From contig QFXG01000009.1 of NCBI GenBank assembly GCA_003402285.1, positions 62,001-126,000 of the forward strand: DNA of 64,000 bases, given 5' to 3'. Of this stretch, positions 174-48,566 are shown in pieces. The position numbers and the translations under genes were made by a program. Position 1 is the first letter of the stretch. The number at the start of each line of letters is the position of its first letter. The notes beneath the pieces are model-generated. The model saw only the letters and a list, made by a program, of their open reading frames with translations. It was not told where the DNA came from and made no database searches. This DNA comes from Candidatus Nitrotoga sp. SPKER (GTDB lineage Bacteria > Pseudomonadota > Gammaproteobacteria > Burkholderiales > Gallionellaceae).

Positions 174-300
174 GGTGATGTCCTCTCGTTCAAAGGTTCT
201 AAATAATTCTGTTACATTCTGGCATATAAGTTATTACTTGTACATTAAAAAAACATATATATAATTCGTTATCGATCGTTAACTTACCTGGAGAACCCTT

Positions 301-549
301 ATGAATGCTGCGAATTCCACCAAAACTAAAGAAGTGACAATGTACCCAGACGGCAGGGTCGATACACGGAATGCCTCAGCCTACGTGGGGTTATCTGCAA
401 AAACGTTGGCCATGATGCGTTGCAATGGCACCGGGCCAAAGTTTGTAAAACGTGGACGTATATTCTATTTTAAGGAAGATTTAGATAGCTGGCTGAACGC
501 AGGCGGCAGGTTCACCAGCACAGCACAAGCACAACTAAGCGCAGTATAA
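301..549 (+). CDS. AlpA/excisionase-like helix-turn-helix protein
   Basis: A small 82-residue protein with a winged HTH core of the HTH_17 type at residues 21-66: the DTRNASAYVGLSAKTLAMM helix pair, then GTGPKFVKRGRIFYFKEDL, where the FYFKEDLDSWL wing and helix is diagnostic. Such proteins regulate integrase or excision genes, or act as excisionases, in P4-like satellites and integrative elements. The start is preceded by a GGAGA motif. The primase gene begins 15 bases downstream, so the two are probably co-transcribed. The N-terminal 14 residues before the second methionine (residue 14) may be dispensable; that methionine is an alternative start. Confidence 0.75.
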   Translation: MNAANSTKTKEVTMYPDGRVDTRNASAYVGLSAKTLAMMRCNGTGPKFVKRGRIFYFKEDLDSWLNAGGRFTSTAQAQLSAV

Positions 550-7780: not shown

Positions 7781-7810
7781 TTGACCTCACCTTTCAATGC
7801 CGCATATACT
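7781..7810 (+). promoter_or_regulatory. Sigma-70-type promoter for the RNA upstream of the Abi gene
   Basis: TTGACC at 7781-7786 and TATACT at 7805-7810 are separated by 18 bases, a strong vegetative promoter. Predicted initiation is near 7817. The promoter points at the short RNA and then the Abi gene. Confidence 0.55.
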
Positions 7811-7816
7811 TCATTC

Positions 7817-7867
7817 AACAACACCCGCCACGCCTCTGATTCAAGCGCACCCCGGCGGGTTTTTTTA
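7817..7867 (+). ncRNA. Putative short structured RNA ending in an intrinsic terminator (abiF-like RNA antitoxin candidate)
   Basis: A transcript starting near 7817 would be about 50 nt. ACCCGCC (7823-7829) pairs perfectly with GGCGGGT (7854-7860), and seven T residues follow, so the RNA closes with a Rho-independent terminator only 16 bases before the Abi ATG. Structured RNAs directly upstream of Abi_2/AbiF genes are known, and in AbiF systems the RNA acts as an antitoxin. That this RNA has that role is inferred from position and shape. I could not check the covariance model. Confidence 0.5.
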
Positions 7868-7882
7868 TGCACATATCGCCTT

Positions 7883-8785: not shown

Positions 8786-8889
8786 AATTTAAACTTGTAC
8801 TGTGCAAAACAAAACCGCGAAATGACCGACGAGTCAGTTCGGCTTTATATTCGAGGATCATAGTATTAGCGGAATTTTCTGTGTAATTC

Positions 8890-8919
8890 TTGTGTAATCG
8901 CGCCCGGAAAATTACACAA
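8890..8919. repeat. 9-bp inverted repeat downstream of the Abi gene
   Basis: TTGTGTAAT (8890-8898) and ATTACACAA (8911-8919) are perfect inverted copies around a 12-base spacer. A partial third copy (GTGTAATTC) lies just before. There is no T-tract, so it looks more like a protein-binding site than a terminator. It stands in an otherwise empty stretch from 8786 to 9023. Confidence 0.4.
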
Positions 8920-9023
8920 AACACCAGAATTCAGCAGAACTAAGGCTGGTGCTAGCAACCTGATTTATACATACAAATCAAACTATTGGGAACAATCTAG
9001 AAGCCATGATACAAACCAGCCCG

Positions 9024-9072
9024 AATACTCTTAATCCGTTGGTCGAGCGTTCGAGTCGCTCACAACCCACCA
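9024..9072 (+). other. tRNA 3'-half fragment (Lys-CTT-like), probable attachment-site remnant
   Basis: The stretch from ACTCTTAATCC through the T-arm (GAGCG-TTCGAGT-CGCTC, perfectly paired) to the CCACCA end has the form of the anticodon-loop-to-3'-end part of a tRNA. The anticodon-loop sequence CTCTTAA would read CTT. There is no D-arm or 5' acceptor strand upstream, so this is not an intact tRNA gene. tRNA 3' ends are the usual crossover sites of tyrosine-recombinase islands. Confidence 0.6.
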
Positions 9073-9187
9073 AAAAAATCAAGCGCTTATTATATACAAT
9101 AGTCTTTGCAATTTACCATAGTAGACCTATAGTAGACTTACCGAATAAAACAATAAACGCTATTTCGTTTGTGAAATTTTCGAATAG

Positions 9188-9236
9188 CTGACTCATAATC
9201 CTTTGGTCCGGGGTTCAAGTCCCTGACGACCCACCA
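9188..9236 (+). other. Second tRNA 3'-half fragment (Met-CAT-like), probable attachment-site remnant
   Basis: GACTCATAATCC, TTTGGTCC, the T-loop GTTCAAGT and the 3' end GACGACCCACCA form another tRNA 3' half. Its T-stem has one mismatch and no 5' half is present. It lies about 165 bases after the first fragment and shares its ACTC-x-TAATCC-x-TTGGTC core, so the two look like att sites left by successive integrations. Confidence 0.6.
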
Positions 9237-9244
9237 ATATATCA

Positions 9245-9279
9245 ATAGGTTAGCGCATTAACGGCTAACCTATTTTTAT
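9245..9279 (+). terminator. Strong intrinsic terminator after the tRNA fragment
   Basis: ATAGGTTAGC (9245-9254) pairs perfectly with GCTAACCTAT (9264-9273) around a 9-base loop, and a T-rich tract (TTTTTATTT) follows. It has the form of a tRNA-gene terminator carried with the 3' fragment. Confidence 0.7.
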
Positions 9280-9399
9280 TTAGTAGCCGTATAGTAGGCT
9301 ACTGAATGCGCTTGAGGTGATACCGACCTCTCCTTATTAAGCATTGAGCGGAGTCCGGTTTAGTGGACGGGCAAGTCGTATGAATTATGCCGCAGATTG

Positions 9400-10269
9400 T
9401 TATCTGCCGGCGTAAAACTGGTTAGCAAAATCGTCAGGTACTTGATTGCCGATTTTTGCATGACGTCGGATACGATTGTAGAACACCTCAATATATTCAA
9501 AGACCACCTGCCTAGCATGCTCACGAGTAGCAAAGCGGTAGTGATGCAGACTTGCTGTTTTGAGCGTGCCAAAAAAGCTCTCCATTGGGGCATTATCCCA
9601 ACAATTTCCTTTCCGGCTCATCGACGTTTGCATGCCAAAACTGACTTGCAGTGCACGGTATGCGCTGCTGCAATACTGGCTGCCACGGTCAGAGTGGTGC
9701 ATCAATCCAGGCTTTGGCTTTTTGCGCCAATACGCCGCACGCAATGCGTCCATCGCCAGTGTTTTGGTCATACGACTATCCATCGCCCAGCCGACGATTT
9801 CACAGGTGTGCAAATCTTTGATCGCTGCCAGAAAGAGCCAACCCTCGTCGGTTGGGATGTAGGTGATATCAGCCACCCAAACTTGATTGGGTGCGGTGCG
9901 AATAAACTGCCGATTCAGTAAATTCTCAGCGACTGGCAGATTATGCTTGGAGTCGGTGGTGACTCTGAACTTCTTTTTATGCATACAGCGGATGCCGTGC
10001 AACGTGCGCAGCCGCTTGATCCGGTTCAGCCCAGCAACCATGCCTTGGTCTATCAGCTCGTCCCGAATCTTCTTTGGGCCATATGTGCCGCGGCCGCATT
10101 GATGTGCCACCTTAATTGCAACCAACAGGCGCATATCTTCAAGTTTGCGCGGTGGCACGACTTTGCCGGTGCTCCATGCCTGATAGCCGCTCTTGGCAAC
10201 ATTGAGCAAATCGCATAGCTTGGCGACCGGATGCTGGTGACGGAGTTGATCAATCATGGCGTATTTCAC
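9400..10269 (-). CDS. IS3-family transposase OrfB (DDE integrase domain)
   Basis: A 289-residue transposase catalytic subunit. It has an HTH_21-type N-terminal region, then an rve/RNase-H-fold core. The catalytic acids are visible in WVADITYIP near residue 130, HHSDRGSQY near 190 and PMESFFGTLK near 228. It opens with a GTG whose last bases overlap the orfA stop (GTGA). That, together with the A-rich tract (TTAAAAAAAGC) near the end of orfA, suggests the usual IS3 -1 frameshift producing OrfAB. Confidence 0.92.
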   Translation of the reverse strand: MKYAMIDQLRHQHPVAKLCDLLNVAKSGYQAWSTGKVVPPRKLEDMRLLVAIKVAHQCGRGTYGPKKIRDELIDQGMVAGLNRIKRLRTLHGIRCMHKKKFRVTTDSKHNLPVAENLLNRQFIRTAPNQVWVADITYIPTDEGWLFLAAIKDLHTCEIVGWAMDSRMTKTLAMDALRAAYWRKKPKPGLMHHSDRGSQYCSSAYRALQVSFGMQTSMSRKGNCWDNAPMESFFGTLKTASLHHYRFATREHARQVVFEYIEVFYNRIRRHAKIGNQVPDDFANQFYAGR

Positions 10270-33766: not shown

Positions 33767-36700
33767 TTACGATTTTGTCATCTCCCATAACGTTCCATCC
33801 GAATACAGCAACGCGCAGCGAACTGTTTTTCCAGCATAAACGGTCTGCATCGCGACACGATATTCCTGCATCTGCACACTATGAGATACAGAATCAGACG
33901 CTGCGCCGGTCTTGTAATCAAGCACCCATACTTCATCTTCAAACTCCACCAGTCGATCGATGCGACGCAATTCACCGCGTGCGTTTACATAAGACATCTC
34001 ATTACAAGCCACTCGGTATTGCTGCGGATCGAAGAAACGTTGTAATGTCGGCAATGCCAACAGGTGTTGTGCCTGTTGCCAAAGTGATTCCATGTCACTG
34101 GACGAGATATCGAACTGCAGTTGCAGCGCCGCCTTGTCAGCCATCTCTCTCTTCTTGATTCCATCTGCCGTAAGTAGGACAGAGGTGCTTGGCGAAGATA
34201 CGCTTAAATGTTGCAACAACGCGTGTAACAAAATTCCTTGCCGCTGAGCAGCAGTGGAGCGCATAGCGCGCTGACCTGTGGGTAATGGACGCAATAATGC
34301 CGCATCGATTTCAGTAGCGACACCAGGTAAAACAGAAACAAGATTATCGGCCGCAATCAGCAAGGGATTATCGCCCTCCTCCACCGCCGCCGAAATGCGG
34401 CCATACCAGGAGGTTCCTTTCAGTTCACCATTTCCGCTCACCAGCAGCGCTTGTTTTGCACGCGTCATGGCGACATATAGCAAATTCATTTCTTCACGCC
34501 GAACATAATTTTCCTCGGCATCAAAATAAGCCGCTCGTTTGGCTCCGCGTCTACGCTTATCCGTAAATAACGAGAAATGCACTGGTTGCAGTGCATCGGG
34601 GGGCCAATCGAGCAGCACATCATAGTTATCTGCTTTACGTTGCGTATCGTTGGCATCAAGTAACCACACGATGGGTGCTTCCAGCCCCTTGGCCTCATGC
34701 ACGGTGTAGATACGCACGGCATTACCAACCTCACCTACCTTGCCCTCGTCTGGTGATTCATTGTTGTCAGCTGTGCGAAGCTCGCTCAGCTCAGTAAGGA
34801 AGCGCGGCAAACTGGGATAGCGTCCGGCATCCACATTCAGCGCAATCTCCATAAAGGCATGCAGGTTGGCGCGTATCGTATCAACCATTTCGACAGGGAG
34901 CGCAGCTTCATACCGATACAACACATCACCCTCAAAATAGATGCGATCAAGCAGATCATGAACCGGCAACTTGTCAGCGCGATCCAGCCAATTATTTAGC
35001 AAGCGATGCGCACGCGACAATTCGGCAGAAGCAACGCCGCTCTGCACACAGCATTGCAGCCGTGACCACCAGCTACCACCAATTTCGTCTTGAGCCAATT
35101 GCATTAAATCGCCATCGGAGCAGGCAAAAATGGGGGAACGCAGAACTTGCGCTAATTCCAAATTGGCGAATGGAGTGATCAAAAAGGTCAGTAATGCCTG
35201 TATATCTTCCGCTTCCAACGTGTCCAACAGCCCGCCGCGTCGCGAAGTTAAAAATGGAATGCGGTGCGTACGCAAAGCCCTCTCATACACGCGTAAATGG
35301 GTGCGCTTACGTACCAATACCATAATGTCACGGTATTCTGCACGCCGCACTGCGCCGTCAGCATCGTGCACACTCCAGTGCGCCATGATGTCGGCGATGC
35401 CAGCGGCAAACTGCTGCGCCTCAGCTTCACGCTCGCCAGTCGCTTGTTCGATACGTGCTTCCTGCAAAGGGTTACGCAACCAGCCCGGTCTACTCAGCAC
35501 ATCAATCTCGGCCGAATTTTCAATTACCGCTAGCGGTAAGACAGTGACGAAACCAGGTAAATTTGTGTAATGCGCGATGTGTGTTTCAAAATCCACGAAG
35601 CCATCCGGCTGCGAATCAAACACACGATTTACCGCTTGCAGGACCATCGGAGCATTGCGCCGCGTGACATTCTGGCTAAGATAATGCGCGCCAAACTCTT
35701 GTTGCAGCCATGCACTTACTTCTCCGAACAGGCGCGCGTCGGCACGACGAAAGCGGTAAATGGATTGCTTGGGATCGCCCACCACAAAAACGGTTGGCCG
35801 CGACTCCACCGCAGCAGATGCGGCAAACCAGGCCTGCAGAATCTGCCATTGCACCGGGTTGGTATCCTGAAATTCATCCAGCAAAACGTGTTTGTAGCGG
35901 CTATCGAGTTTGTACTGCATATACTCGGCACAATCACTCTGATTGAGTAGACGGCATACCTGCCATTCCACATCAGTAAAATCCATTACCTGCTGACGCA
36001 ACTTCAAATCCTGATAGTGTTGCAGCAATGCTGCCCCGCAATGCAACGCGGCCTGGTTCATACGCAGCGCTTCGCGCTCTGTCAACGCATCACGCACAGA
36101 CTGCAGGGATTCGAATAAGGCACAACAAAGGCTGCTATAGCGCGCTTCATCCTGCCCTTTATTCGCCTTGAGTTTGCGCGGTTCGCCCTGTTTGGTATAA
36201 AACTTTGCGCTGAGTGCTTCAAAGCGTGCAGCTAAATCTTGTAGACTCAAGGCTTCCAACAGCTTACCCGCTTCTTTCTGCTGCGCTGCCGAGCCGCTTT
36301 GCAACAAGCTTGCAAATGCCTGTACATTGGATTCAAAATTTTGATCCATCAGTGCCGCCAGCGGATCATCCTCCGGATCAACGTCAAGTTTGATACGGAG
36401 TTGCTCCATCGCATAGCCCACCGCATCTTCCTGACCGCTGGTATAAGCCCACCATTCGGCTCGCTTCTGTACAAAATTCTTTAGCAGTGTGCGCGTACTG
36501 TGCAAACCATATTCCGCAAACAACCATTGCATCTCTTGCGCAGTTTCATTGTTGGGTGCAGCACGCAAACTATCGGCGAACATTTGCCATGCTTCCTCAT
36601 GCAGCACCGAAGTACGCTCCAGCAATTGCATCCCTATAAGCAGACCAGAATTCAACGGGGCGCGCTGGATGATCTGCATGAACCAGCCGTGAAAAGTATT

Positions 36701-37036
36701 GATGGTAATAGCAGATTGCGTCATTAGACAGTCGCAATACAGACTTCGCGCGCGCATCAGCAGACTGTCGTTTACATCGTGCAGTTCGCGCTCCACAAGA
36801 AAAATACGCACAGCAACATCATCCTGCGTGGCAAGAAAATGTAACCATTCGTGCAAGCGCGCCTGCATTTCCTGCGCAGCTTTTCGAGTGAACGTGATGG
36901 CTAAAATTTCTCCGGGTTTAACACCGGCTAACAGCAAACGTAGAATTCGTGACACCAACAGCCAGGTTTTACCGCTGCCGGCACAGGCTTCCACGACAAC
37001 GCTGTGCTGAGGGTTGAGAGCAATGGAATTGTTCAT
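33767..37036 (-). CDS. AddA-like UvrD-family helicase/nuclease
   Basis: A protein of about 1,090 residues. It has the superfamily 1 motifs: Walker A EACAGSGKTWLLVSRIL near residue 12, AITFTRKAAQEMQARL near 45, the DEFQDTNPVQWQIL Walker B near 385, QSIYRFRRADARLF near 425 and VAMTRAKQALLVSG near 820. The C-terminal RecB-type nuclease region carries VEFEDEVWVLDYKTG. With AddB it would process double-strand breaks for RecA. I chose the ATG at 37036, preceded by an AATAGGGAG ribosome-binding site; an upstream in-frame ATG at 37078 overlaps the end of addB. Confidence 0.85.
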   Translation of the reverse strand: MNNSIALNPQHSVVVEACAGSGKTWLLVSRILRLLLAGVKPGEILAITFTRKAAQEMQARLHEWLHFLATQDDVAVRIFLVERELHDVNDSLLMRARSLYCDCLMTQSAITINTFHGWFMQIIQRAPLNSGLLIGMQLLERTSVLHEEAWQMFADSLRAAPNNETAQEMQWLFAEYGLHSTRTLLKNFVQKRAEWWAYTSGQEDAVGYAMEQLRIKLDVDPEDDPLAALMDQNFESNVQAFASLLQSGSAAQQKEAGKLLEALSLQDLAARFEALSAKFYTKQGEPRKLKANKGQDEARYSSLCCALFESLQSVRDALTEREALRMNQAALHCGAALLQHYQDLKLRQQVMDFTDVEWQVCRLLNQSDCAEYMQYKLDSRYKHVLLDEFQDTNPVQWQILQAWFAASAAVESRPTVFVVGDPKQSIYRFRRADARLFGEVSAWLQQEFGAHYLSQNVTRRNAPMVLQAVNRVFDSQPDGFVDFETHIAHYTNLPGFVTVLPLAVIENSAEIDVLSRPGWLRNPLQEARIEQATGEREAEAQQFAAGIADIMAHWSVHDADGAVRRAEYRDIMVLVRKRTHLRVYERALRTHRIPFLTSRRGGLLDTLEAEDIQALLTFLITPFANLELAQVLRSPIFACSDGDLMQLAQDEIGGSWWSRLQCCVQSGVASAELSRAHRLLNNWLDRADKLPVHDLLDRIYFEGDVLYRYEAALPVEMVDTIRANLHAFMEIALNVDAGRYPSLPRFLTELSELRTADNNESPDEGKVGEVGNAVRIYTVHEAKGLEAPIVWLLDANDTQRKADNYDVLLDWPPDALQPVHFSLFTDKRRRGAKRAAYFDAEENYVRREEMNLLYVAMTRAKQALLVSGNGELKGTSWYGRISAAVEEGDNPLLIAADNLVSVLPGVATEIDAALLRPLPTGQRAMRSTAAQRQGILLHALLQHLSVSSPSTSVLLTADGIKKREMADKAALQLQFDISSSDMESLWQQAQHLLALPTLQRFFDPQQYRVACNEMSYVNARGELRRIDRLVEFEDEVWVLDYKTGAASDSVSHSVQMQEYRVAMQTVYAGKTVRCALLYSDGTLWEMTKS

Positions 37037-37067
37037 TGCATGCTCCCTATTCCTTGCACTTCTTTCA

Positions 37068-39875
37068 TTAGCGTTCATCCCATTCCGATCTTCGACATAG
37101 CCCGCGCATCTCGCAATACTGGCATGCTTCTGCCACCCCATGCGCGGGCAATGCTGCGCCACTGCGTATCTGTGCGAACACTTCCAACAGGCGCGCAATA
37201 TTTGCCTGCGCCAGTTGAGCCATGTCCTGTGGTGGCGCAACTGCAATCACCTTGTCTTTCTCGATACTGATAAATGCGGCTTCTTCAGCCTCATACACGT
37301 AGGCATAACAAGCCAGCTGCACGTCCTCACCTGCTTCTTTGAGCTTATTGCGTAGCCGGGCCGCATCCATCATCTTATAATCCAGCACGCGCACTGAACG
37401 ACTTCTTTCGACCTTCACATCTACACGGTCTATCCGTCCATGCATAAGCAAATCATTAGTCAATGGCAATTCAAACGGTACTTCTCCACTTTGATATCGC
37501 CAGCCTTCCGCTTCATTTTTTAACTGTTCGTCCAGATACAAGGGAATTGCTTGCTGCCAACGCAATAGCCAGCCACGCGCTAAATAATCGCGTTGCACAG
37601 CAGGCGCAAAAATCTCGACACTGATGCGCAGCAGGGCCGCATCCAGATCGGCGCGCAGATGATTACCCAGCACCGGATATTGCTCATGGAAGCGCCTTAG
37701 AATGTCATGTACCCATTCACCATAATCGCGTTTCTCCACGTCTTCTCGCACTTCATCCATTTCATTGAGGTGCAGAATATGGCGGGCATAAAATTGGTAG
37801 GGACACGCTACCAGGCTGTTATAGCCGCTGGCTGAAATACGCTTCGGAATAAGGCCTGGCCGCGCAACTGGCGTAGGCCTTGCAGCCGCAGGAGGCAGTG
37901 GAAATTCTGCACTACGCATTTGCGACCTTTCAAGCAACCTATCCCATTCCCCCTTTTTGATCGTTAGATCGTCCGCATAAGCCAACTCATGCAGGGCACC
38001 CAGCATTTCGAACCAAGGGCTTAACAAATTTGCTTCACCGCTTTTGCTGGTTTGCCAGGTAACCAATACAGTGTCATTCATAACGAGTAATGCCAATAAA
38101 TCATCACGCTGCTGTGCCAAATTCACTTCGCGCGTCGGCAAGCCAAGCGTAGTGCGCACCGCATCATTGAACCACCGTCCGCTGTTGTCAGCGCCCGGCA
38201 GATGTGCAGCATCACAACCGAGCATTAGCACTGCATCAAAGCTACGCCAGCGCGTTGCGGCAAGATGGGTGAGTAAAACCGGGCTGTCGATAGATACATC
38301 ACGGAAGGTGTCCTCATCGAGTTGTTGCGCCAGCCAATGCCGCCATTCGGTCAGGCTGACGCGCGTGGTATCGGCATGCAGTTCACGCTGCCAGTTTTGC
38401 AGCACCTGCAGCAACTGTAACCCGGCATCATCCGTCTTCAGCCCCTGCGCTACACCAATTATCTCCAGGCTAGCGTAAAGCGCTTGTAACCAGCCAGACA
38501 GCGTATCGTTTTTTTTATGCAAGACCTCTGCAGCCCGACGCAACCGTATCAATGCCATCTGCATCTCAACATGACCCTGCGTCAAATCTAAAAATGCATC
38601 AAGATGCGCCACCACTCCATGCTTGCGCACCAGTTGTTCCAGCTGATACACCGTCTGCTTACGCTCGTACACGGCTTGATCGGCAAAGATGAATGGCGAT
38701 TTAAGCAGGTCAAGTAAATCCTGATAATAGAAGTCACTTTGCAATGCATCCAGCCAGCGCATTAACACCGTACTCACCGATAGTGTGGAGAATTTCCAGC
38801 CTGTTTCGTCGCATACCATTACACCAGCGCGCTCCAGCAAAGCACGCATACGCCTTGCTACTAGGCGATCTTGTGCGACGATAGCAATGTTTTTTTTACC
38901 TGCCAACAACCAGCGCCGTATCTGTACCTCAGCGGCACGCGCTTCTTGTTCCAAACCATGAGCACCAAAAAAACGCAGGCGGTGTCCCCATGCAGCGTGA
39001 GGAAAATGTTTTTGTAGGTGTACGGCTTGCTCACGCAATGACAGGGCATCCATTTCCTGAGAGAAGGAATTCTCTACCTCCTCCTTCAAGTTATCGTGCA
39101 TTCCTCCATTGTTTTCCGTTGGAGCACAGTCAGAAAAATGAGGTCGACTAGAAGCAATGATGCGCATCACCGCATATTCTGGCTGTCGTGATGACATCTC
39201 GCGCAAATCAAAAATCATCACTGGCGCGCGTTTATGATATGCCTCCAGGAAGCGTGCTTCAGTCGCAGCCAGATCGGAAGTCAATAACACATACAGTGGC
39301 AACTCCGCTTGCTGCGCAAGTTGTGCCAAACTTTGCTGATAAGCGCGTGCGGTATCAAATTCACCGCTACTGTTCATCGCATACCATAACTCATAAACTA
39401 CACGTGCCTCAAACTGCATGGCGATGCCGCGCTTGGACTGATAAGCTTGTTCCAATTGCGATAGAAAATCTTCGGCATTTTGTGGCAGCGTGACATGATT
39501 TTGTGTCAGCTCATCCAGCAAAATCAACAGTTCGCGTGCGATGCTCCATAGATCAGCATCGGCAAACCAACGCCGCGCGCGCAGTGCCTGATACAAAGTA
39601 GTGATACGGCAAGTGTCAGGAATAACAGGTAGTGTGAGGGGAACAGACTGAACCCAATCAGCGAGCGTGACCATCTGTGGCAATAAAAGTGCAGGCAGAT
39701 TAGCTGCACATGCCAAACTTTGTGCCAATGGTTGTAACACATGGTAATTGGGTAACAAAACCCTGGCACGGCGCAGATCAGGTATTTCGTGAGAGTGCTG
39801 CGTCAAAATAACACGTGCAACAGAATCAAAAAAAACAGTGGCGTTTGATGCATTACTTTGCGGTATCGGGTTCAA
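37068..39875 (-). CDS. AddB-like PD-(D/E)XK exonuclease subunit
   Basis: A 935-residue protein. The N-terminal two thirds form an inactivated helicase-like fold. The C-terminal nuclease has the ASGYNSLVACPYQFYARHI motif near residue 665 and RIDRVDVKVERS then VRVLDYKMM near 830. The cysteine of ACPYQ plus CQYCEMRGLC at the end are the ligands of the AddB-type iron-sulfur cluster. It pairs with the AddA-like helicase encoded directly downstream. The frame is intact. Confidence 0.85.
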   Translation of the reverse strand: MNPIPQSNASNATVFFDSVARVILTQHSHEIPDLRRARVLLPNYHVLQPLAQSLACAANLPALLLPQMVTLADWVQSVPLTLPVIPDTCRITTLYQALRARRWFADADLWSIARELLILLDELTQNHVTLPQNAEDFLSQLEQAYQSKRGIAMQFEARVVYELWYAMNSSGEFDTARAYQQSLAQLAQQAELPLYVLLTSDLAATEARFLEAYHKRAPVMIFDLREMSSRQPEYAVMRIIASSRPHFSDCAPTENNGGMHDNLKEEVENSFSQEMDALSLREQAVHLQKHFPHAAWGHRLRFFGAHGLEQEARAAEVQIRRWLLAGKKNIAIVAQDRLVARRMRALLERAGVMVCDETGWKFSTLSVSTVLMRWLDALQSDFYYQDLLDLLKSPFIFADQAVYERKQTVYQLEQLVRKHGVVAHLDAFLDLTQGHVEMQMALIRLRRAAEVLHKKNDTLSGWLQALYASLEIIGVAQGLKTDDAGLQLLQVLQNWQRELHADTTRVSLTEWRHWLAQQLDEDTFRDVSIDSPVLLTHLAATRWRSFDAVLMLGCDAAHLPGADNSGRWFNDAVRTTLGLPTREVNLAQQRDDLLALLVMNDTVLVTWQTSKSGEANLLSPWFEMLGALHELAYADDLTIKKGEWDRLLERSQMRSAEFPLPPAAARPTPVARPGLIPKRISASGYNSLVACPYQFYARHILHLNEMDEVREDVEKRDYGEWVHDILRRFHEQYPVLGNHLRADLDAALLRISVEIFAPAVQRDYLARGWLLRWQQAIPLYLDEQLKNEAEGWRYQSGEVPFELPLTNDLLMHGRIDRVDVKVERSRSVRVLDYKMMDAARLRNKLKEAGEDVQLACYAYVYEAEEAAFISIEKDKVIAVAPPQDMAQLAQANIARLLEVFAQIRSGAALPAHGVAEACQYCEMRGLCRRSEWDER

Positions 39876-40134: not shown

Positions 40135-40557
40135 TCAGCGCATCAGCAGCTTATCCATTCCTGTCAAGCCATCTTCATCTTTTCCATCCTTTGACCCACC
40201 AGGATAGTTCCGTTCCTCTTCGCCAGGAGCATATTCCCTCTCCAAGAGATGTAGCTTGTCCTTCACTTCTTTCCATTCATCTGCGTCGGCAGGTGGATCC
40301 TTTTTCTCGACAATACACTTCCATACCTTACAGAGCTCTGCATTCAGCGCACTGAATTGCCGCTGATCTTCTGGCAAATCATCCTCGGCATAAATTGCAT
40401 TGACTGGACATTCGGCAACGCACAGCGTGCAATCTATGCATTCATCCGGGTCGATCACCAAACTGTTCGGCCCTTCGTAAAAACAGTCCACCGGACAAAC
40501 CTCAACACAATCAGTATATTTGCATTTAATACAAGCTTCGGTAACTACGTAAGTCAT
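40135..40557 (-). CDS. fdxA: 7Fe-8S ferredoxin FdxA with extended C-terminus
   Basis: A 140-residue ferredoxin. The ligands of the two clusters are [17 protein letters not shown] (residues 9-25) and [12 protein letters not shown] (residues 40-51), the 3Fe-4S plus 4Fe-4S pattern of FdxA. The family is usually about 107 residues. Here an extra charged tail of about 30 residues (from [16 protein letters not shown] on) ends the protein. It serves as a soluble electron carrier; the partner is not indicated by its neighbours. Confidence 0.92.
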
Positions 40558-40684
40558 GGATTCAAACTCCTATTGAAATATGTTTGCTATTTTAAACAAA
40601 ATACAGGTTAGTGTCAGCTATAGCGACCTAATTATTCAATAAATTGGTATAGTTCTGAGCCTGTCTTACATTAACGGTGATTTA

Positions 40685-41926
40685 ATGCTTACAGACAAAA
40701 TAAAAATTGAATCTTCGATCAAGCTAGAGCAATGTGAGAAATTCATTGAACAAATAGGGTCAGGAGATTATCCATTACTCGAACTTCCCCCCCGCTTAAC
40801 TGGATTTGGCGCTCTCGGTTTAGAAGCTAGCCTTGTTCATCTTATTATTGCGTGGGCACGTACTTCGAAAAACTCGACACTTGTTCTACCAGTATCCCCT
40901 GAAAAGGTTTCCACTTTCCTTTCTGACCTTTGCACAACTGTATACGGATTTGTTGCACTGGCTTGTGCAAAAAGTGTAAATGACAAGAGTGGATCGCTCA
41001 TACCTCCCCAAGATATAAAAAAATTGGTAACCGCTCGCTTAAAGGAGTTTGACAATACCGACACCCCTCGAATGTTCGCGCAGGATGAGGGCATTTCATT
41101 CATATCTGTTTATGGTGGGCAATACGAGCATGGACGTTGGATGTTTACCGCACCGTCAATCACTAAACCTCCTAAACTCCAATCGCCACAACAACTAGTA
41201 AGGCTAATAGGAAGGTGTATTGAACAAATCATCCCAAATAAATTTTTGGACAGGTTTGATAAAGAACGTTTGAATAATTTAGGTTTGGTTGCTTTTGAAT
41301 TGCTGGAGAATGCTTATCAGCATGGTCGCTTGGACGAGTTTGCGGATCCCATAAAAATCGGCGTTCGAGGTATCTCGATCAGAGTTATCGAAATCGACAT
41401 TGATTCATCAGACATAGTGGCAGGTGGGAATAAGGGGGTTAGCCTTTATTTAATACGTCGTGCGCTAAAAGACAAGGGGAAAGAAAATTTATTTTTCGAA
41501 ATGACAGTGTTTGATAGCGGAATTGGATATAGACGCTGGATTAATGCTCGCTGCAATGAAAATCATGACACGCGGGAATATCGTGATAAATCAGAATTGG
41601 AAACCATTCAAGATTGCCTGCTACACCATGCAACATCAAAAACTATTGCCGGTTCAGGCATAGGCCTTGTTAGAGTAATTCGATTACTTAAATCTATGTT
41701 TGGTTTTGTTCGTATTCGAACTGGACAAAGTTGCTATTACGCGCGCCTAGATATGACACTTGATGGTCGCCCAATATTACTACGTGGGAATTACGATGAA
41801 ATAAATAACCCAGATATCAAATTAGAGGAATGGTTTCCCAATAGGCCCCTAGGCGAATCCAGCGGCACATCAGTAACTTTTTGCATCCCGCTTACGAATT
41901 GGATGAAAGCTGACAACAATGACTAG
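40685..41926 (+). CDS. GHKL-fold ATPase (Hsp90/histidine-kinase-like), first gene of an unrecognised cassette
   Basis: A 413-residue soluble protein that is not a sensor kinase: it has no membrane segments, dimerisation histidine or receiver. The nucleotide-binding GHKL motifs are clear: N-box VAFELLENAYQHG near residue 202, G1 VFDSGIGY near 275 and the G2 glycine-rich lid GSGIGLVRVIRLLKSMFG near 321. The N-terminal 180 residues match nothing I know. The gene overlaps the next by 8 bases (ATGACTAG), so its product is made in step with it. Codon use is AT-richer than that of neighbouring addB, fdxA and folE2. I infer an ATP-driven switch or sensor for the cassette. Confidence 0.75.
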   Translation: MLTDKIKIESSIKLEQCEKFIEQIGSGDYPLLELPPRLTGFGALGLEASLVHLIIAWARTSKNSTLVLPVSPEKVSTFLSDLCTTVYGFVALACAKSVNDKSGSLIPPQDIKKLVTARLKEFDNTDTPRMFAQDEGISFISVYGGQYEHGRWMFTAPSITKPPKLQSPQQLVRLIGRCIEQIIPNKFLDRFDKERLNNLGLVAFELLENAYQHGRLDEFADPIKIGVRGISIRVIEIDIDSSDIVAGGNKGVSLYLIRRALKDKGKENLFFEMTVFDSGIGYRRWINARCNENHDTREYRDKSELETIQDCLLHHATSKTIAGSGIGLVRVIRLLKSMFGFVRIRTGQSCYYARLDMTLDGRPILLRGNYDEINNPDIKLEEWFPNRPLGESSGTSVTFCIPLTNWMKADNND

Positions 41927-44126
41927 ACTTTTTTCATTTCGTGGCGAAGTAACGTGGAGCGTACAACGTGCCGATGTTATATTCATATACATCCCTATAT
42001 GCGAAATAGCCCCTAGTGACATAGAACGAAGGTTGGTTGATCAACTAGGTGACGGAGGTATTAGCCCAGATTTCATCGTGTTTATTACACCGTTCTCCCA
42101 AATTGAAGATGTTGTTATCACTTTAGGCAATGAACTACTTTCTGAGCGATTTGATAACTTAAAAAGATGTAAAGGAATTGTCTTAGCCCCGTTCAATAAA
42201 TGGGGAAGCTTCGTTAATCTTAATTGGATTAAATACGATAATACAGGCGTTCCCCATCCAGATTCCAATCAACTTCTTGTTTCGGCTCGGAACGCTGGTT
42301 TCGCTTGTCTTACAGGCAGCAATGGGGTTATTACGAAAGCACCGCCGGGAACCTATTTTCGCAACCCCTCGCAGAATCCGAGATCATATTTCATTCGCGC
42401 TGCGCTACTTTGCAGGAACAGCGTAGAAGCATCGTTCGTCTCCTTTGCCTTACTGCCATTGGTTGCCAAAGCTGAAGTAATTTATAGAAAAGCTCCAAAC
42501 ATAATTTGGGTAGATACGGTTAGTATTGCTTACATTGCTTATGCGTTGTCTGAACTGTGCATTCATCTTGGGGCCCTTTCCGCAAAGCCAGAAATTAGAT
42601 CATATAGCTCTTATGGCGGGCTATCGGACACCGCCCCAGAGACTGGCGACTACCCAATATTTCTTATTTCAGCGTCAACGTCCGGAGGAATGGCTAGGGA
42701 TTTAGTTGCTCGTACCGGCGGTAGAGTCCAGCAAGAAATAATCGGCACTATTCTTGGGTCTTTTGAAGAGAAGTTTCCTCAACTGCTGTACTCAATCCCT
42801 GAGCGTCAGCAGGGCCCGAATATCGAATCAGTTAATACCTTACGTGAAATTTTGGTGAGCGGCGAGGATTTTCTTTTTAGTCCAGGTGAACCCATTCCGG
42901 TTGTGCTTAAACGCATCCATCTTCCTAAGCTTTTTTCAGAGAACTTTAAAAGTATTCAAGGTAAGGGGCTAATTCATCATTTCAAACGATTGAGTGCAGA
43001 CAAAAAGCCTAAAGCCTTTTTTATTGATGGAGCTCTTTTGGCGGCAGATAATGACTTTAGGCATTGGGTAGTAAGTAAGGCAAAAGGCATGTTACCTGGT
43101 ACAGTTAACCGAATTGTTTATCAAAATGACGAAGGATCTAGGCGCATGGCCGAGATAGTTCGTGACGCCCTAAAGCCTTTCAGAAATGAGCTTCCAATAT
43201 CTTCCGTTGAGGAAATTGAAAAACTCCCGCCTCAAAATGACGAAACTGTAGCGATTGTAGCGGCCGTGGCTGGAAGCGGAATGGAGCTAATGCGGATTAC
43301 AAAAGCCCTTCGACAATATCAGCCGGAAGGATCTAGGTTTTTTCTCATCGGCACTGTGTTAGCGCGAAGCTATATGCAGTTAGAACAGTTTAAAGCGAAC
43401 TTGAAGCTCGCAGACAAAACGTTGTCTTATGCAGTGGAGACGTGGGGCGACTTCGCTACATCCACTGTAGCACTTCACGAATACCATGTTCGTGAAGTGA
43501 ACTTACTCAAAGAGATTGTGGGCACTTCAGATAATACTGACCTCAATCAATTTGCAGAAAACCGACTGGACTCTATTCAAGCTCAAGGCGTAGTACACGA
43601 AGGCTTGCCTAGAAGTGAGCCGTTCATTAGCATGTCTGGCGATGATGCGTCGTTTGACCTCAGCAAGGGCTTTGCGCTCTGGGGAAATTTCAATAATAGG
43701 AGGTGTCCAATTGACGTTCTGTTCACTGTTTCCTGCTGGTTACAAAATGCACGCGAAGGCAGATCGCTTGCGCATTCCGAACGCCTTGATGGTGGAGGGT
43801 TTCAACAGGCAATAATTGCCCCTGACTGCTTCTTACGCTTTACGGATCCAGTAATTCAGGTGTCGATTTTACGGTGCGCTCATGACAGTGAGTTGGACTA
43901 TCGTTCATCATTGACGGCGAGCCCACGAGCCGCAGAGATAATTTCGAAATTTCTAGGATTGGGGGAAGAATCAGTTACAGAACTCCTGATGGCTTTGGTG
44001 TTAAAACGAATACGCTTAAGAAGGGAAGATAAAGATCGAGTAAGCGCTGAAGCAATGAACGTTTTTAGCGATAAAAAAGCATTCCTTCATGAATTGGCCC
44101 GCAGATACTCTGAGCTCAAAGAATGA
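41919..44126 (+). CDS. Large protein with two phosphoribosyltransferase-like folds, function unknown
   Basis: A 735-residue soluble protein. Two regions follow the strand-loop-helix pattern of type I phosphoribosyltransferases. The first is IIWVDTVSIAYIAYALSEL near residue 195, with a PRPP-loop-like PIFLISASTSGG near 247. The second is KAFFIDGALLAADND near 365, with VAIVAAVAGSGMEL near 443. Both loops lack the acidic pair normally preceding TGG/SGG, so catalysis as a standard PRTase is doubtful; nucleotide or PRPP sensing is an alternative. The C-terminal ~170 residues are unassigned, apart from a basic helix (LVLKRIRLRREDKDR). It is coupled to the GHKL gene and 43 bases ahead of the pyrophosphohydrolase gene. 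Fold assignment is inference from pattern. Confidence 0.6.
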   Translation: MTRLFSFRGEVTWSVQRADVIFIYIPICEIAPSDIERRLVDQLGDGGISPDFIVFITPFSQIEDVVITLGNELLSERFDNLKRCKGIVLAPFNKWGSFVNLNWIKYDNTGVPHPDSNQLLVSARNAGFACLTGSNGVITKAPPGTYFRNPSQNPRSYFIRAALLCRNSVEASFVSFALLPLVAKAEVIYRKAPNIIWVDTVSIAYIAYALSELCIHLGALSAKPEIRSYSSYGGLSDTAPETGDYPIFLISASTSGGMARDLVARTGGRVQQEIIGTILGSFEEKFPQLLYSIPERQQGPNIESVNTLREILVSGEDFLFSPGEPIPVVLKRIHLPKLFSENFKSIQGKGLIHHFKRLSADKKPKAFFIDGALLAADNDFRHWVVSKAKGMLPGTVNRIVYQNDEGSRRMAEIVRDALKPFRNELPISSVEEIEKLPPQNDETVAIVAAVAGSGMELMRITKALRQYQPEGSRFFLIGTVLARSYMQLEQFKANLKLADKTLSYAVETWGDFATSTVALHEYHVREVNLLKEIVGTSDNTDLNQFAENRLDSIQAQGVVHEGLPRSEPFISMSGDDASFDLSKGFALWGNFNNRRCPIDVLFTVSCWLQNAREGRSLAHSERLDGGGFQQAIIAPDCFLRFTDPVIQVSILRCAHDSELDYRSSLTASPRAAEIISKFLGLGEESVTELLMALVLKRIRLRREDKDRVSAEAMNVFSDKKAFLHELARRYSELKE

Positions 44127-44169
44127 CCCCGCTTAAGAATCAAAATATTTAGAAAATTGAAAGGAAAAT

Positions 44170-44601
44170 ATGAATACGTTTGCAAGTCGTATCAAAGCAA
44201 TGAATAGTATGTATAAGCTGCCTATACATGAAACACCTTCTTTGCCATTACATCCAATTGTTCGGTTGAGTAAATTCAAAAAAACATTGATGGATGAGGT
44301 GCATGAAATTGACGACATTTCATCTATCCATGATCCTGTAGATCGAATGGTTGCTATAGCGGACTTACTCGGAGATGTCATTGTTTATTGCCGATCTGAA
44401 GCACTGAAATATGGTATACCTCTTGAAGAAGTTCTTGACATAATAATGGATAGTAATGAAAGTAAACTGGACTCTGATGGCAAGCCGATCTATAACTCAG
44501 AAGGTAAATTTCTGAAAGGGCCCAATTACTGGAAGCCAGAACCTAAAATTAAAGAATTGATCCTCGCAATGGGCGGCGTCAGTACTGGCAATTGGGAATA
44601 A
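44170..44601 (+). CDS. MazG/HisE-like all-alpha NTP pyrophosphohydrolase
   Basis: A 143-residue protein with the helical metal-binding pattern of the MazG/phosphoribosyl-ATP pyrophosphohydrolase superfamily: an E-x-x-E pair in LMDEVHEIDDI near residue 44, ADLLGDVIVYC near 66, then ALKYGIPLEEVLDIIMDSNESKL and the family C-terminal DGKPIYNSEGKFLKGPNYWKP. It would hydrolyse a nucleoside triphosphate to the monophosphate and pyrophosphate; the substrate is unknown. A ribosome-binding site AAAGGAA precedes the ATG. It is the third gene of the GHKL/PRTase-like cassette and its direction matches. Confidence 0.8.
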   Translation: MNTFASRIKAMNSMYKLPIHETPSLPLHPIVRLSKFKKTLMDEVHEIDDISSIHDPVDRMVAIADLLGDVIVYCRSEALKYGIPLEEVLDIIMDSNESKLDSDGKPIYNSEGKFLKGPNYWKPEPKIKELILAMGGVSTGNWE

Positions 44602-44756
44602 TGAAATTAATTGGCGCGGATCGACACGTTAAAGCCAGTCGTACCGATTAGTTTTGCTAGATTTTCATGCCCGCTTCACCCTTAGAGGTGGTACATCCAA
44701 GAAGCCAAACCGACAGCTATTCCAGCAAACCGCCGCAGTCCGCAACATGAACTCAT

Positions 44757-44802
44757 AATTGTGGTCAGACTTTAAGGGAAGACTTCAGAGTCTGACACAA
44801 TT
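44757..44802. terminator. Long hairpin between the convergent cassette and folE2
   Basis: AATTGTGGTCAGACT (44757-44771) pairs with AGTCTGACACAATT (44789-44802) over 14 base pairs with one bulged G. It ends 4 bases before the folE2 stop. There is no long T-tract, but its place between convergent genes fits a bidirectional terminator. It may also mark the edge of the inserted cassette. Confidence 0.5.
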
Positions 44803-44805
44803 CCT

Positions 44806-45612
44806 TCAGTTGTTCACATTTCTATCCCACTCTATCAATGCATAAGCCGAATGATTATGTATGGATTCAAAATTCTCCGATTCAACCACATACGCCTCAA
44901 TACGTTCATCACGATTTAGCGCTGCTGCGACATCGCGCACCATGTCTTCAACAAACTTGGGGTTATCATAAGCTCGCTCAGTGACAAATTTTTCATCGGG
45001 ACGCTTAAGTAAGCCATACAGTTCGCAAGATGCCTGCTCCTCGGCATAACGCACCACCTCTTCTATCCATACAGAGCGGCTGGTACGCACGGTAATAGTC
45101 ACGTGTGAACGTTGATTGTGCGCGCCTCGCTCAGATATTTTTTTGGAGCATGGGCACAAACTGGTTACCGGCACTACTACCTTCATGGTGAAACGGTATT
45201 GCCCGTTGTTAATTTCGCCAATAAAGGTAACGTCGTAGTCCAACAAGCTCTGCACGCTAGATACCGGGGCCGTCTTATTGATAAAATAAGGGAAGCTCAT
45301 TTCGATGTGGCCGGACTTTGCCTCTAATTTCTCCACCATCTCACGTAAAATGCTTTCAAATGACTCTACAGAAATCTCCCGCCCATGATGGTTGAGTATC
45401 TCAACAAAGCGCGACATGTGCGTGCCTTTGAAGTTATGCGGCAAGTGCACATACATATTAAAAGTGGCAACGGTATGCTGCACCCCCGCGTTTTTATCTT
45501 TAACTTGCACTGGATGACGAATACTCTTGATGCCGACTTTATTAATCGCCAGATGGCGCGTATCGGCCATATTTTGTACATCAGGAATAAGTGTAGCCTG
45601 GGGAGAGTTCAT
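44806..45612 (-). CDS. folE2: GTP cyclohydrolase FolE2 (type IB)
   Basis: A 268-residue enzyme of the T-fold converting GTP to dihydroneopterin triphosphate, the first step of folate synthesis. The conserved catalytic region [19 protein letters not shown] near residue 151 carries the FolE2-type cysteine and the E-R-G-A-H motif. The N-terminal [12 protein letters not shown] and the C-terminal [12 protein letters not shown] are also typical. It is a single gene, convergent with the GHKL cassette. Confidence 0.94.
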
Positions 45613-45899
45613 GTTTGCGCAATGTAATAGCTAGATAGATACAAGAATTCGGATAAATTTAATGACATTAATCATAGTCTGTAGCGTTATCAGACTACCT
45701 TACTAACGAGGTTACTGACTACCAAAAAGGTAGGTTAACTCAGCGTGGATACAGACAGAAAGTCGTTTAACCGCATTAAGCTAAACGCACGTCAGTCAAA
45801 GTATTTAAGATCATAAACAAATATTCAATACGACGGACATACAGGTCAAACTTTGCGGATTCCCCTGGAGGACCAGGGGAATCCCTCACAAATCACCTT
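45613..45899. other. Intergenic region between folE2 and the peroxiredoxin gene
   Basis: No gene is seen. A CCCCTGGAGGACCAGGGGAAT hairpin near 45864-45883, just past the peroxiredoxin stop, is GC-rich and may terminate that gene. No T-tract is obvious. Confidence 0.4.
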
Positions 45900-46559
45900 T
45901 TAACTTGGTTGCTTGACTACACGTAAATAAGGTTTAACTGTTTTCCAACCTTCTGGGAACATTGCTTTTGCATCATCATCAGATACCGACGGTACGATAA
46001 TTACGTCATCGCCATTTTTCCAATTGACAGGCGTCGCGACTTTAGATTTAGCGGTTAACTGCATGGAATCTAGAACACGTAAGATCTCATCAAAATTTCG
46101 ACCTGTGGACATTGGATAGGTCAGTGTCAATTTAATCTTCTTGTCCGGACCAATAATAAAAACTGAGCGAACAGTTGCATTGGTAGCCGCAGTGCGACCC
46201 TCGGATGTACCCGTTTCTTCAGCGGGTAACATGTTATAAAGCTTCGCTACAGCTAAATTTTCGTCTCCGATCATAGGGTAATTTACAGCATAACCTTGTG
46301 TTTCTTCAATATCTTTTGCCCATTTTTCATGGTTACCCACTGGATCGACACTTAATCCAATTATTTTGCAGTTTCGTTTTTTAAATTCCGGCTCTAGTTT
46401 TGCCATGTACCCTAATTCAGTTGTACATACTGGCGTAAAATCTTTTGGATGAGAAAATAATATTGCCCAGCCGTTGCCAATCCACTCATGAAAATTAATG
46501 GTACCTTGAGTTGTGGGGGCAGTAAAATTTGGTGCTTCATCATTAATCCGTAGTGACAT
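45900..46559 (-). CDS. 1-Cys peroxiredoxin (Prx6 type)
   Basis: A 219-residue thiol peroxidase. The peroxidatic cysteine is in the motif HPKDFTPVCTTELG near residue 45, and the long C-terminal extension (TPVNWKNGDDVIIVP to PYLRVV) is that of the Prx6 subgroup. It reduces hydrogen peroxide and organic peroxides. The ATG at 46559, preceded by GGAGG, gives the canonical MSLRINDEAPNF start, so the 13 upstream in-frame codons are left out. It is a single gene. Confidence 0.93.
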   Translation of the reverse strand: MSLRINDEAPNFTAPTTQGTINFHEWIGNGWAILFSHPKDFTPVCTTELGYMAKLEPEFKKRNCKIIGLSVDPVGNHEKWAKDIEETQGYAVNYPMIGDENLAVAKLYNMLPAEETGTSEGRTAATNATVRSVFIIGPDKKIKLTLTYPMSTGRNFDEILRVLDSMQLTAKSKVATPVNWKNGDDVIIVPSVSDDDAKAMFPEGWKTVKPYLRVVKQPS

Positions 46560-46694
46560 GGTCAATCCTCCGTTTATATTGAAATTATGTTGTAACACCT
46601 TTTACTACTACATATTGATTACACTGTTATTTTTTGTAATCAAATATATTTCTAAGAATCAATTATAAATTCTTTAACGATATAGTACGCTAAT

Positions 46695-48566
46695 TCATAA
46701 AGACATTTTTTGACGAATTGAGGCAACGATACCTGTTGCGTCCAAACCGCATGTAGCCAGCATTTTGCCTGTCTCTCCTTGCGCCAAAAAACGATCTGGC
46801 AATCCAAGTTGGAGCAACGCATTTGTCATACCGTGTTGTTGCAAACACTCCGCCACCGCGCTACCCGCACCGCCCTGGATGGTGTTTTCTTCTATAGTAA
46901 CAAGCAAAGCATGCTCGCGCCCCAAATGCAACACCAGTTCTGTATCGAGAGGCTTAACAAAGCGCATGTTGGCAACCGTGGCATTGAGTGAGTCCGCAGC
47001 ATCAAGCGCTAGGCCAAGCATAGAGCCAAAAGACAAAATTGCGACGCCTGAGCCAGTACGACGCACTTCACCTTTACCTAAAGGCAGCACTTGCATTTCC
47101 TTACGTGATGCAACACCCGGTCCATAGCCCCGCGGATAACGCACAGCGGTCGGGCTATCCAGCTGGAATGCGGTGTATAACAGCTGACGGCATTCGTTCT
47201 CATCAGCAGGAACCATGACTGTCATATTGGGAATGCAGCGTAAAAAACTCAGGTCAAAACTACCTGCATGCGTAGCGCCATCCGCACCGACCAGTCCGGC
47301 ACGATCTATCGCCAGCAGCACCGGCAGGTTTTGAATCGCGATATCGTGTATCAGTTGGTCGTAAGCTCGTTGCAAGAAAGTAGAATAAATCGCCACGACG
47401 GGCTTATAACCTTCGCATGCAAGCCCGGCGGCGAAGGTCAGTGCATGCTGTTCGGCAATACCTACGTCAAAATAACGTTGTGGAAATTTTTTTGAAAATT
47501 CAACCAGACCAGAACCCTCGCACATGGCAGGGGTAATGCCTACTAAACGCTTATCCTGCTCTGCCATATCGCACAACCATTCGCCAAAAACCTGGGTGTA
47601 GGTAGGCTTGCTGGCTTGTCCTTCAACATTTCTCTGGATCGGTTTGGTAACGATGCCTTGCTCTGGATCAAACTTGCCCACACCATGATAGAGCAGACAA
47701 TCTTCCTCTGCGTGCGTGTATCCTTTTCCTTTTTGCGTCACAACATGCAGAAATTGCGGTCCTTTGAGCTGACGTATGTTTCCAAGCGTTGTGACTAAGG
47801 TATCAAGATCATGCCCATCGATCGGACCGATGTAATTGAAACCAAATTCTTCAAACAACGTACCCGGTGTAACCATACCCTTGACATGCTCCTCAGCACG
47901 CTTAGCAAATTCAAGTACTGGCGGTATACCTTTCAGCATTTTTTCACTACCGCGTCGCATGGCAGAATAAAAGCGTCCTGACATCAACTTGGCAAAATAA
48001 TTATTGAGCGCACCGACTGGCCGCGAGATGGACATGTCATTGTCATTGAGGATCACCAGCAGGTTGGTATTCATCGCACCGGCATTGTTAAGCGCCTCAA
48101 ATGCCATGCCACCGCTCATCGCGCCATCACCAATGATAGCCACCGCACAGCGATCGCTTCCATCAATTTTCGCCGCCACTGACATTCCCAAAGCTGCGCT
48201 GATCGATGTGCTGGAATGCGCGGTACCGAAGGCATCGTAAACACTTTCAGCGCGATTAGGAAAACCTGAAATACCACCTGCCATGCGCAGGGTTTTCATT
48301 GCTTCGCGGCGTTCCGTAAGTATCTTGTGTGCGTAAGTTTGGTGACCCACATCCCACACCAGTCTGTCATACGGTGTATTAAAAACGTAGTGCAATGCAA
48401 TGGTTAATTCTATCGTACCAAGATTAGAAGACAGATGACCACCCGTCTTACTCACAGACTCCACCAAAAATTGACGCAACTCATTCGCCAGTTGGGGCAA
48501 TTGCTTGCGATCCAACTGACGCAAGACTTCTGGGGTATTGATGGTATTGAGCAACGACACCATCAA
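46695..48566 (-). CDS. dxs: 1-deoxy-D-xylulose-5-phosphate synthase
   Basis: A 623-residue thiamine-diphosphate enzyme, the first step of the MEP isoprenoid pathway. The ThDP motif [19 protein letters not shown] is near residue 145, the [18 protein letters not shown] start motif near 42 and the transketolase central motif [18 protein letters not shown] near 360. It overlaps the ispA stop by four bases, so xseB-ispA-dxs is a coupled operon. Confidence 0.96.

Follow-up and report, generated by a model that had tools for sequence, protein, structure and literature searches.

Between the ferredoxin gene fdxA and folE2, a 64,000-nucleotide stretch of the Candidatus Nitrotoga sp. SPKER genome (contig QFXG01000009.1, positions 62,001 to 126,000; hereafter the window) carries three tightly packed plus-strand open reading frames (ORFs), here called genes A, B and C, and the question raised by this locus is whether the three genes work together, and at what. 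A first-pass annotation had read them as an unrecognised three-gene cassette encoding a GHKL ATPase, a protein with two phosphoribosyltransferase (PRTase)-like regions and a MazG/HisE-like pyrophosphohydrolase, possibly a switch serving during infection or stress. The coordinates of the three ORFs were confirmed (Table 1), with an overlap of 8 bases between A and B and a gap of 43 bases between B and C. The locus is real and was correctly spotted, but it consists of two genes rather than three, and these two are not new: A–B is a divergent member of PDC-M65, a candidate phage-defence system of PADLOC.

The PDC-M65 pair and the gene that follows it

Gene A matches the PADLOC model PDC-M65A over nearly its full length (E 1.7e-33, 114 bits, residues 5–404 of 413), and gene B, in the same operon, matches PDC-M65B in two stretches, the best of which spans residues 387–715 (E 1.9e-53, 180 bits); no PADLOC match was obtained for gene C. 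The same models recognise the relatives of the two genes, PDC-M65A being matched by 71/71 homologues of A and PDC-M65B by the 13 homologues of B tested (13/13). The window pair differs from the family in that its B protein is devoid of the CxxC-type motif found in the 286–319 region of 59 of 77 B homologues, and in that gene C follows it. A–B is therefore already catalogued as a defence candidate. We found no published mechanism for it, and the name PDC-M65 was absent from the literature searched (bioRxiv preprints lay outside that search).

The conserved unit is made of A and B. Indeed, at 83 of 91 related loci (some of them near-identical copies of one another), B is preceded by A in the same orientation, with a median gap of -4 bases and with 81 of the 83 pairs within 100 bases; in the eight exceptions, B either starts less than 1.2 kb from a contig edge (six loci) or is present as fragments only (two loci). 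Distances between loci are concordant for A and for B (Mantel r 0.95 for 70 paired loci, compared with a maximum of 0.15 in 999 permutations), also among pairs sharing less than 50% identity (r 0.87). The closest relative, locus L018, shows 63% (B) and 66% (A) identity to the window proteins, and another genome of the same genus, G015, carries A–B on its contig 73. The distribution is patchy: B is present in 4 of 100 relative genomes, source genome included, on nine plasmids and on two IMG/VR contigs, and in none of the annotated phage records. A genome collection yielded 97 stretches with B, the 80 best being retained; it was scanned with one peptide pattern, so that these counts are lower bounds. 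Judging by record titles, the hosts of B include Alpha-, Beta- and Gammaproteobacteria, Bacteroidota, Actinomycetes, Acidobacteria, Planctomyces and Syntrophobacterales; an E. coli search using a Pantoea homologue gave no match.

Gene C is what the first-pass annotation took it for, an all-alpha nucleoside triphosphate pyrophosphohydrolase (NTP-PPase) relative of MazG/PRA-PH type, as judged from its matches to phrog_671 (E 8.8e-19) and PDB entry 3nl9 (E 4.2e-6); Pfam PRA-PH and MazG-like matches stayed under the cut-off. It is not part of the conserved cassette, because it is undetected at the 91 related A–B loci, L018 included (phmmer on all ORFs of at least 50 codons, E up to 1; at L026, L036 and L037 at least, the sequence ends less than 0.8 kb past B, too early to show it), and because its relatives occur in unrelated settings. 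Relatives with 63–71% identity adjoin, by eye, for example selenide-synthase-like and protease-like genes or a gyrA-like gene, or lie near an integrase-like gene; relatives are also found on Cupriavidus plasmids, and the one in G012 has an in-frame stop. In the same 100 genomes, C occurs in five and overlaps with B solely in the source genome; the seven plasmids with C share no record with those carrying B, and relatives of C were found in 81 phage records versus none for B. Co-occurrence of homologues, a check put forward by the first-pass annotation, thus held for A–B and not for C, and the three-gene cassette was rejected on the distribution of C, which is probably a passenger gene. Its location inside the same inserted block as A–B (see below) counts against this reading.

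Note that three Nitrosomonas loci hold, 0.3, 1.4 and 2.7 kb downstream of B, a gene of MazG type recognised by eye. Since it has no detectable homology to C (BLASTP E 0.31) and is followed by the same gene in all three loci, we read it as a likely piece of flanking chromosome.

Architecture of the A and B proteins

Protein A is a GHKL-type ATPase with an intact ATP site. The GHKL motifs quoted in the first-pass annotation were located at residues 202–214, 277–282 and 323–328, and the ATP-site residues are kept in 71/71 homologues (70/71 for E205 and L328), as is G394 (71/71). With the AlphaFold 2 (AF2) model of A (71 sequences; predicted local distance difference test score (pLDDT) 86.8, predicted template modelling score (pTM) 0.89), Foldseek retrieved GHKL proteins at the top, namely GyrB (E 8.4e-3, probability 0.95), then topoisomerase VI, CckA and CheA, none with an E below 0.001. 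HATPase_c (Pfam) is matched by 15 of the 71 homologues, with a best E of 4.8e-5; Pfam and NCBIfam were uninformative for A itself, and PHROGs gave weak matches to families lacking a function. In agreement with the earlier reading, no sensor-kinase parts were recognised in A by Pfam profiles, in the AF2 model or by Foldseek; no helix-turn-helix (HTH) was recognised either. By reading of the model, the N-terminal unit has the order strand–helix–strand–helix–strand, as in STAS domains; alignment of residues 1–128 with STAS gave a profile probability of 0.35%, the positive control, PyrE against HPRT, reaching just 5.3%.

Protein B is predicted to hold a PRTase-type fold. Its AF2 model (77 sequences; pLDDT 90.5, pTM 0.73) retrieved orotate PRTases first (4rv4, E 7.2e-6, probability 1.00) and adenine PRTases next in the Foldseek search, with a target TM of approximately 0.5–0.6 in most top rows. 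The Foldseek output does not specify the matching part of B; the domain limits were set from the order of the structural elements, which is the same in a second region (Table 1). The structural check suggested at the outset thus supports a PRTase fold in B at the level of predicted structure, with a second region that seems to repeat it. A viral structure library likewise gave PRTases and uridine monophosphate synthases among the best rows; long alignments to helicases and replicases in that library were taken as spurious, given their large root-mean-square deviations. A profile comparison of domain 1 with domain 2 (hhalign, 117 columns, E 0.0014, probability 17%) suggests an internal duplication. 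Part of B is predicted to share the fold of orotate PRTase, a type I PRTase from which B differs by its missing acidic pair (see below), its apparently tandem domains, its extra helical domain and its length of 735 residues. Nothing significant was found by Pfam in 13 B homologues (PRTase_2, E 0.29, in one of them), Pfam and NCBIfam were uninformative for B, PHROGs assigned it no function, and no nuclease was recognised in it.

In type I PRTases, the phosphoribosyl pyrophosphate (PRPP) loop carries two acidic residues preceding a TTG(G) turn, and this acidic pair binds the ribose of PRPP and the metal. The pair is absent from both loop equivalents of B in all 77 homologues; at the level of sequence, this does not support the PRPP-using enzyme implied by the PRPP loops of the first-pass annotation. 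The TSG-type loop of domain 1 is mostly kept (S255 in 74/77, G256 in 65/77 homologues), and D199, S251 and several Arg and Glu residues of B are invariant. Columns conserved at 90% or more number 22 in the C-terminal domain versus 14, 3 and 0 in the rest of the protein, part by part, conservation around residues 642–651 being partly built in by the search pattern of the collection, which spans them; R640, D643, Q647, R652 and E688 are invariant also in a 13-row alignment gathered without the pattern. In Spirosoma (L010), a short ORF of its own (7564–8007) encodes the N-terminal module, apart from the rest of B (8004–9917), which suggests that the N-terminus is a detachable module.

Restriction context and insertion site

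A–B is associated with type I restriction loci. When the genes within about 9 kb were clustered at the 92 loci with gene calls, window included, HsdR/helicase-type proteins were found at 12 loci, an HsdS-containing cluster at 10 and HsdM at nine. At seven loci, A–B and hsd genes form a row on a single strand, in the arrangements M-S-x-R-A-B, R-M-S-x-A-B, R-x-M-S-A-B, R-M-S-A-B and A-B-M-S (x, another ORF) and in two looser ones. Of 37 genomes, 6 have a match to HsdM_N (Pfam) inside the locus stretch, compared with an expectation of 0.28 (P 5.6e-7), a test biased by the choice of the loci after the neighbour clusters had been seen; with the same six matches charged to all 80 loci, P is 4e-5. 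As recognised by PADLOC, the 125 nearest neighbours include at least four HsdR and at least four HsdS matches, whereas no type I restriction-modification family is among the matches listed for 83 distant control genes, which comprise single Gabija, AbiE and IetA matches; this comparison is no more than indicative, the broad "mad" models matching both gene sets. Together with the PDC-M65 match, the restriction context bears out the link to defence suggested by the first-pass annotation. As to other neighbours, qatC and qatD are annotated on a Pseudomonas aeruginosa plasmid, 3–4 kb downstream of B, a Rhizobium copy of A–B has TIR genes in its vicinity, and the thymidylate synthase gene thyX adjoins A–B in four alphaproteobacterial loci (upstream of A in L011, L014 and L084, downstream of B in L081). 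In L014, dgt is found after B as well, on the opposite strand.

In the host genus, the fdxA–folE2 interval is a variable insertion site. In G018 (L189) and G016 (L194), it measures no more than 70 and 54 bp, respectively; the intervals of G005 and G012 have no called gene, and G004 shows a match to a folE2 fragment 69 bp from fdxA. Other congeners carry cargo: an HNH protein (G006), an AAA_15/OLD-like ATPase (G007), a C5 DNA methylase with an HNH protein (G013), a glycosyltransferase with a PfpI protein (G015), and a beta-propeller with a GATase protein (G010). Among the ten genomes in which both genes are close and were read, six sites are occupied, window included; four of the six hold defence-type or nuclease cargo and two (G015 and G010) non-defence cargo. 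In G001, G003, G008, G014 and G017, fdxA and folE2 fall on separate contigs, and folE2 was not found in G009. In the window, the inserted block was called because similarity of the flanks to congeners stops and resumes at its edges. An IS200/Y1-type transposase-like gene adjoins fdxA in congeners (L196:2786-3481, by Pfam; L201:1555-2274, by eye) and is possibly related to the entry of cargo into the site.

The first-pass annotation had also described the genes as AT-richer than their neighbours and as ending at a strong hairpin. With GC contents of 0.415 (A), 0.447 (B) and 0.384 (C), they are indeed AT-richer than the whole window (0.477) and than the left side (about 0.5), but the right side is as AT-rich as the cassette (0.40–0.41 at 45500–46999). 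The hairpin exists, but it starts about 155 bases downstream of the end of C and lies partly in sequence common to cassette-less congeners (the matches of L198 and L199 start at window positions 44771 and 44766); for these reasons it may belong to folE2. Promoter and terminator scans gave sites at counts not above those of shuffled sequence. The source assembly comprises 2.98 Mb in 32 contigs. Just past fdxA, the minus strand holds two large ORFs (window positions 33767–39875) that overlap and, judged by eye, resemble a helicase-nuclease pair of AddAB type.

Table 1. Positions of the genes, domains, motifs and flanking features (window coordinates unless residues or another locus are indicated)
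Feature	Location	Strand	Details
Gene A	40685-41926	+	413 aa ORF
A, domains	residues ~1-145; ~193-413	+	alpha/beta N-terminal; GHKL ATPase (AF2, Foldseek, PADLOC)
A, GHKL N box (E205, L206, N209)	41297-41311	+	N209 71/71 homologues, E205 70/71
A, GHKL G1 box DxGxG (D277, G279, G281)	41513-41527	+	each 71/71 homologues
A, GHKL G2 box GxGL (G325, G327, L328)	41657-41668	+	G325, G327 71/71; L328 70/71
Gene B	41919-44126	+	735 aa ORF; predicted N-terminal alpha/beta module, two PRTase-like domains, helical C-terminal domain
B, PRTase-like domain 1 (residues 116-335), OPRTase (orotate PRTase)-like	42264-42923	+	AF2 element order (by reading); weak profile match to OPRTase 4paw, positions 138-184, E 1.3
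B, domain 1 PRPP-loop equivalent LISASTSGG	42663-42689	+	no acidic pair (0/77); S251 77/77
B, PRTase-like domain 2 (residues 336-515)	42924-43463	+	same element order (by reading); hhalign to domain 1
B, domain 2 PRPP-loop equivalent IVAAVAGSG	43254-43280	+	no acidic pair (0/77 homologues)
B, helical C-terminal domain (residues 516-735)	43464-44123	+	most near-invariant columns: R640, D643, Q647, R652, E688
Gene C	44170-44601	+	143 aa ORF
C, motifs	ExxE residues 43-46; DxxxD 65-69	+	NTP-pyrophosphohydrolase-like
fdxA	40135-40557	-	ferredoxin gene, left neighbour of gene A
folE2	44806-45612	-	right neighbour of gene C
Inserted block with A, B and C	~40640-44800		edges at 40621-40647 (left) and 44766-44840 (right), depending on the genome compared
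Hairpin between C and folE2	44757-44802		-20.9 kcal/mol, z -3.23
MazG-type genes in Nitrosomonas loci	L019:12456-12836; L020:13592-13921; L083:14809-15138		by eye

A possible ATP-gated switch and the competing explanations

The best explanation of these data, to which we give an even chance, is that A–B would be an ATP-gated switch over a ligand-sensing pseudo-PRTase effector, employed in phage defence and accompanied by C as a passenger. Its parts differ in strength. A–B is the conserved pair of a listed defence candidate, and it rather likely acts in defence. A role of A in gating B is somewhat short of an even bet; it is the most likely role for A since GHKL proteins alternate between an open state and an ATP-closed one, phosphate transfer being known for some of them. 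That B is a pseudo-PRTase receptor is doubtful, although ligand binding, and not synthesis, is the most likely role for it. In such a switch, A would bind ATP and dimerise or phosphorylate in the manner of GHKL proteins, thereby holding or releasing B, whose PRTase-like domains would no longer make nucleotides and would bind a nucleotide-like or phosphoribosyl nucleotide-like ligand; the helical C-terminal domain would carry the output, acting on a target or a partner. The trigger could be a phage that changes the nucleotide pools or blocks the adjacent restriction enzyme, and the thrown switch would cause B to stop growth or replication. The recurrence of A–B in a restriction context suggests a second-layer role: A–B might be a second line behind restriction, as PrrC is behind EcoprrI, the type I enzyme linked to it. 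In its most specific form, namely a GHKL ATPase or kinase clamping a tandem pseudo-PRTase whose lapsed catalysis has turned it into a nucleotide-ligand receptor with helical-domain output, guarding type I restriction enzymes, the idea is slightly more doubtful still than the receptor role of B; to our knowledge, a catalytically lapsed PRTase serving as an immune receptor is without precedent.

Several observations weigh against this explanation. As seen in the neighbour clusters, most A–B loci, the window included, have no adjacent restriction genes, and no experiment on anti-phage activity of the PDC-M65 family was found in the literature searched. The PRTase assignment of B rests on structure prediction, since sequence profiles give no link to PyrE (probability below 1% for the B domains). 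More generally, comparisons of the A N-terminus and of B with PyrE, HPRT and STAS all gave 2.4% or less, with narrow and wider alignments; these negatives say little for PyrE and STAS because the PyrE–HPRT control itself (E 0.0074) reached only the probability given above, below both comparisons internal to B. The second of the latter aligned the N-terminal module with domain 2 (hhalign, 40 columns, E 0.0039, probability 8.7%); since this module matches domain 2 nearly as well as domain 1 does, the likeness of domains 1 and 2 may be a general alpha/beta resemblance. That the acidic pair is missing hinges on an alignment, made by eye, of the B loops to the PRPP loop. Finally, the Nitrosomonas MazG-type genes near A–B may keep alive a link to nucleotide hydrolysis.

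Known systems offer partial parallels. PrrC is silenced by a linked type I restriction enzyme and is a second defence layer encoded with that enzyme (PMC2610378), like A–B in type I operons; PrrC is, however, an ABC-ATPase anticodon nuclease, whereas no nuclease is recognised in B. PRTase effectors are described in type III retrons and in a DprA-PRTase system (PMC12548924, PMC9122126), so that B resembles them as a PRTase-type protein of a defence system; A–B differs in having neither reverse transcriptase nor DprA, and in its GHKL ATPase partner and its tandem PRTase-like domains. The figure legends of DefensePredictor (PMC13092281) place PRTase among the validated systems, HATPase among the predicted ones, and MazG among those predicted and not validated; compared by these legends alone, an overlap with PDC-M65 is possible.

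Among the alternatives, A–B could be a stress or metabolic regulator riding in variable loci, which is unlikely: many loci without recognised adjacent defence genes, the two non-defence cargoes at the fdxA–folE2 site and the four thyX neighbours fit such a role, but the enrichment in type I restriction loci, the patchy distribution (B in 4/100 relatives), the plasmid and IMG/VR copies and the PADLOC candidate status argue for defence. A little less likely, A would be a CapK/VapK-like STAS-GHKL kinase, activated by DNA damage or single-stranded DNA (ssDNA), whose phosphorylation of B releases the activity of the latter. According to PMC13373217, CapK is an ssDNA-activated HTH-STAS-GHKL kinase of an immune operon, VapK is CapK-like without HTH and its activation is proposed likewise, and these GHKL proteins are, like A, encoded beside immune genes (CapK/CapS, VapK/VapS/VapC). 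The order of the elements in the A N-terminus agrees with this, but the STAS domain of A is putative in view of the low STAS alignment probability and of the lack of a recognisable STAS protein among the best 50 Foldseek rows for A; moreover, A has no recognised HTH, and its partner B is PRTase-like, no STAS domain being recognised in its segments by a comparison that the control shows to be insensitive.

Less likely again, B would be a phosphoribosyl- or glycosyltransferase that is active though non-canonical, producing a signal or modifying a target under the ATP-driven control of A. The retained fold, the mostly kept TSG-type loop and the invariant D199, S251, Arg and Glu residues speak for it; against this, the acidic pair is missing in both domains of all homologues. 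Very improbable, finally, is a three-gene ATP-gated cassette with C as the effector, breaking down a nucleotide that B makes or senses. Such a cassette would account for the position of C, 43 bases past the end of B in the same orientation and within the same block, for its NTP-PPase relatives and for the MazG-type and thyX genes near other A–B loci, but the distribution of C at A–B loci, in genomes, on plasmids and in phages is against it.

Taken with the preferred reading, A–B as an ATP-gated switch over a pseudo-PRTase, these results make of PDC-M65, so far an anonymous candidate, a hypothesis that can be tested, in which a nucleotide-sensing system backs up restriction; it is based on an ATP switch with a tandem PRTase-like protein, on the pair alone as the unit and on its repeated place in type I operons. 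They also suggest that the third gene, C, can be spared when A–B is cloned, and they designate fdxA–folE2 in the host genus as a small insertion site worth mining.

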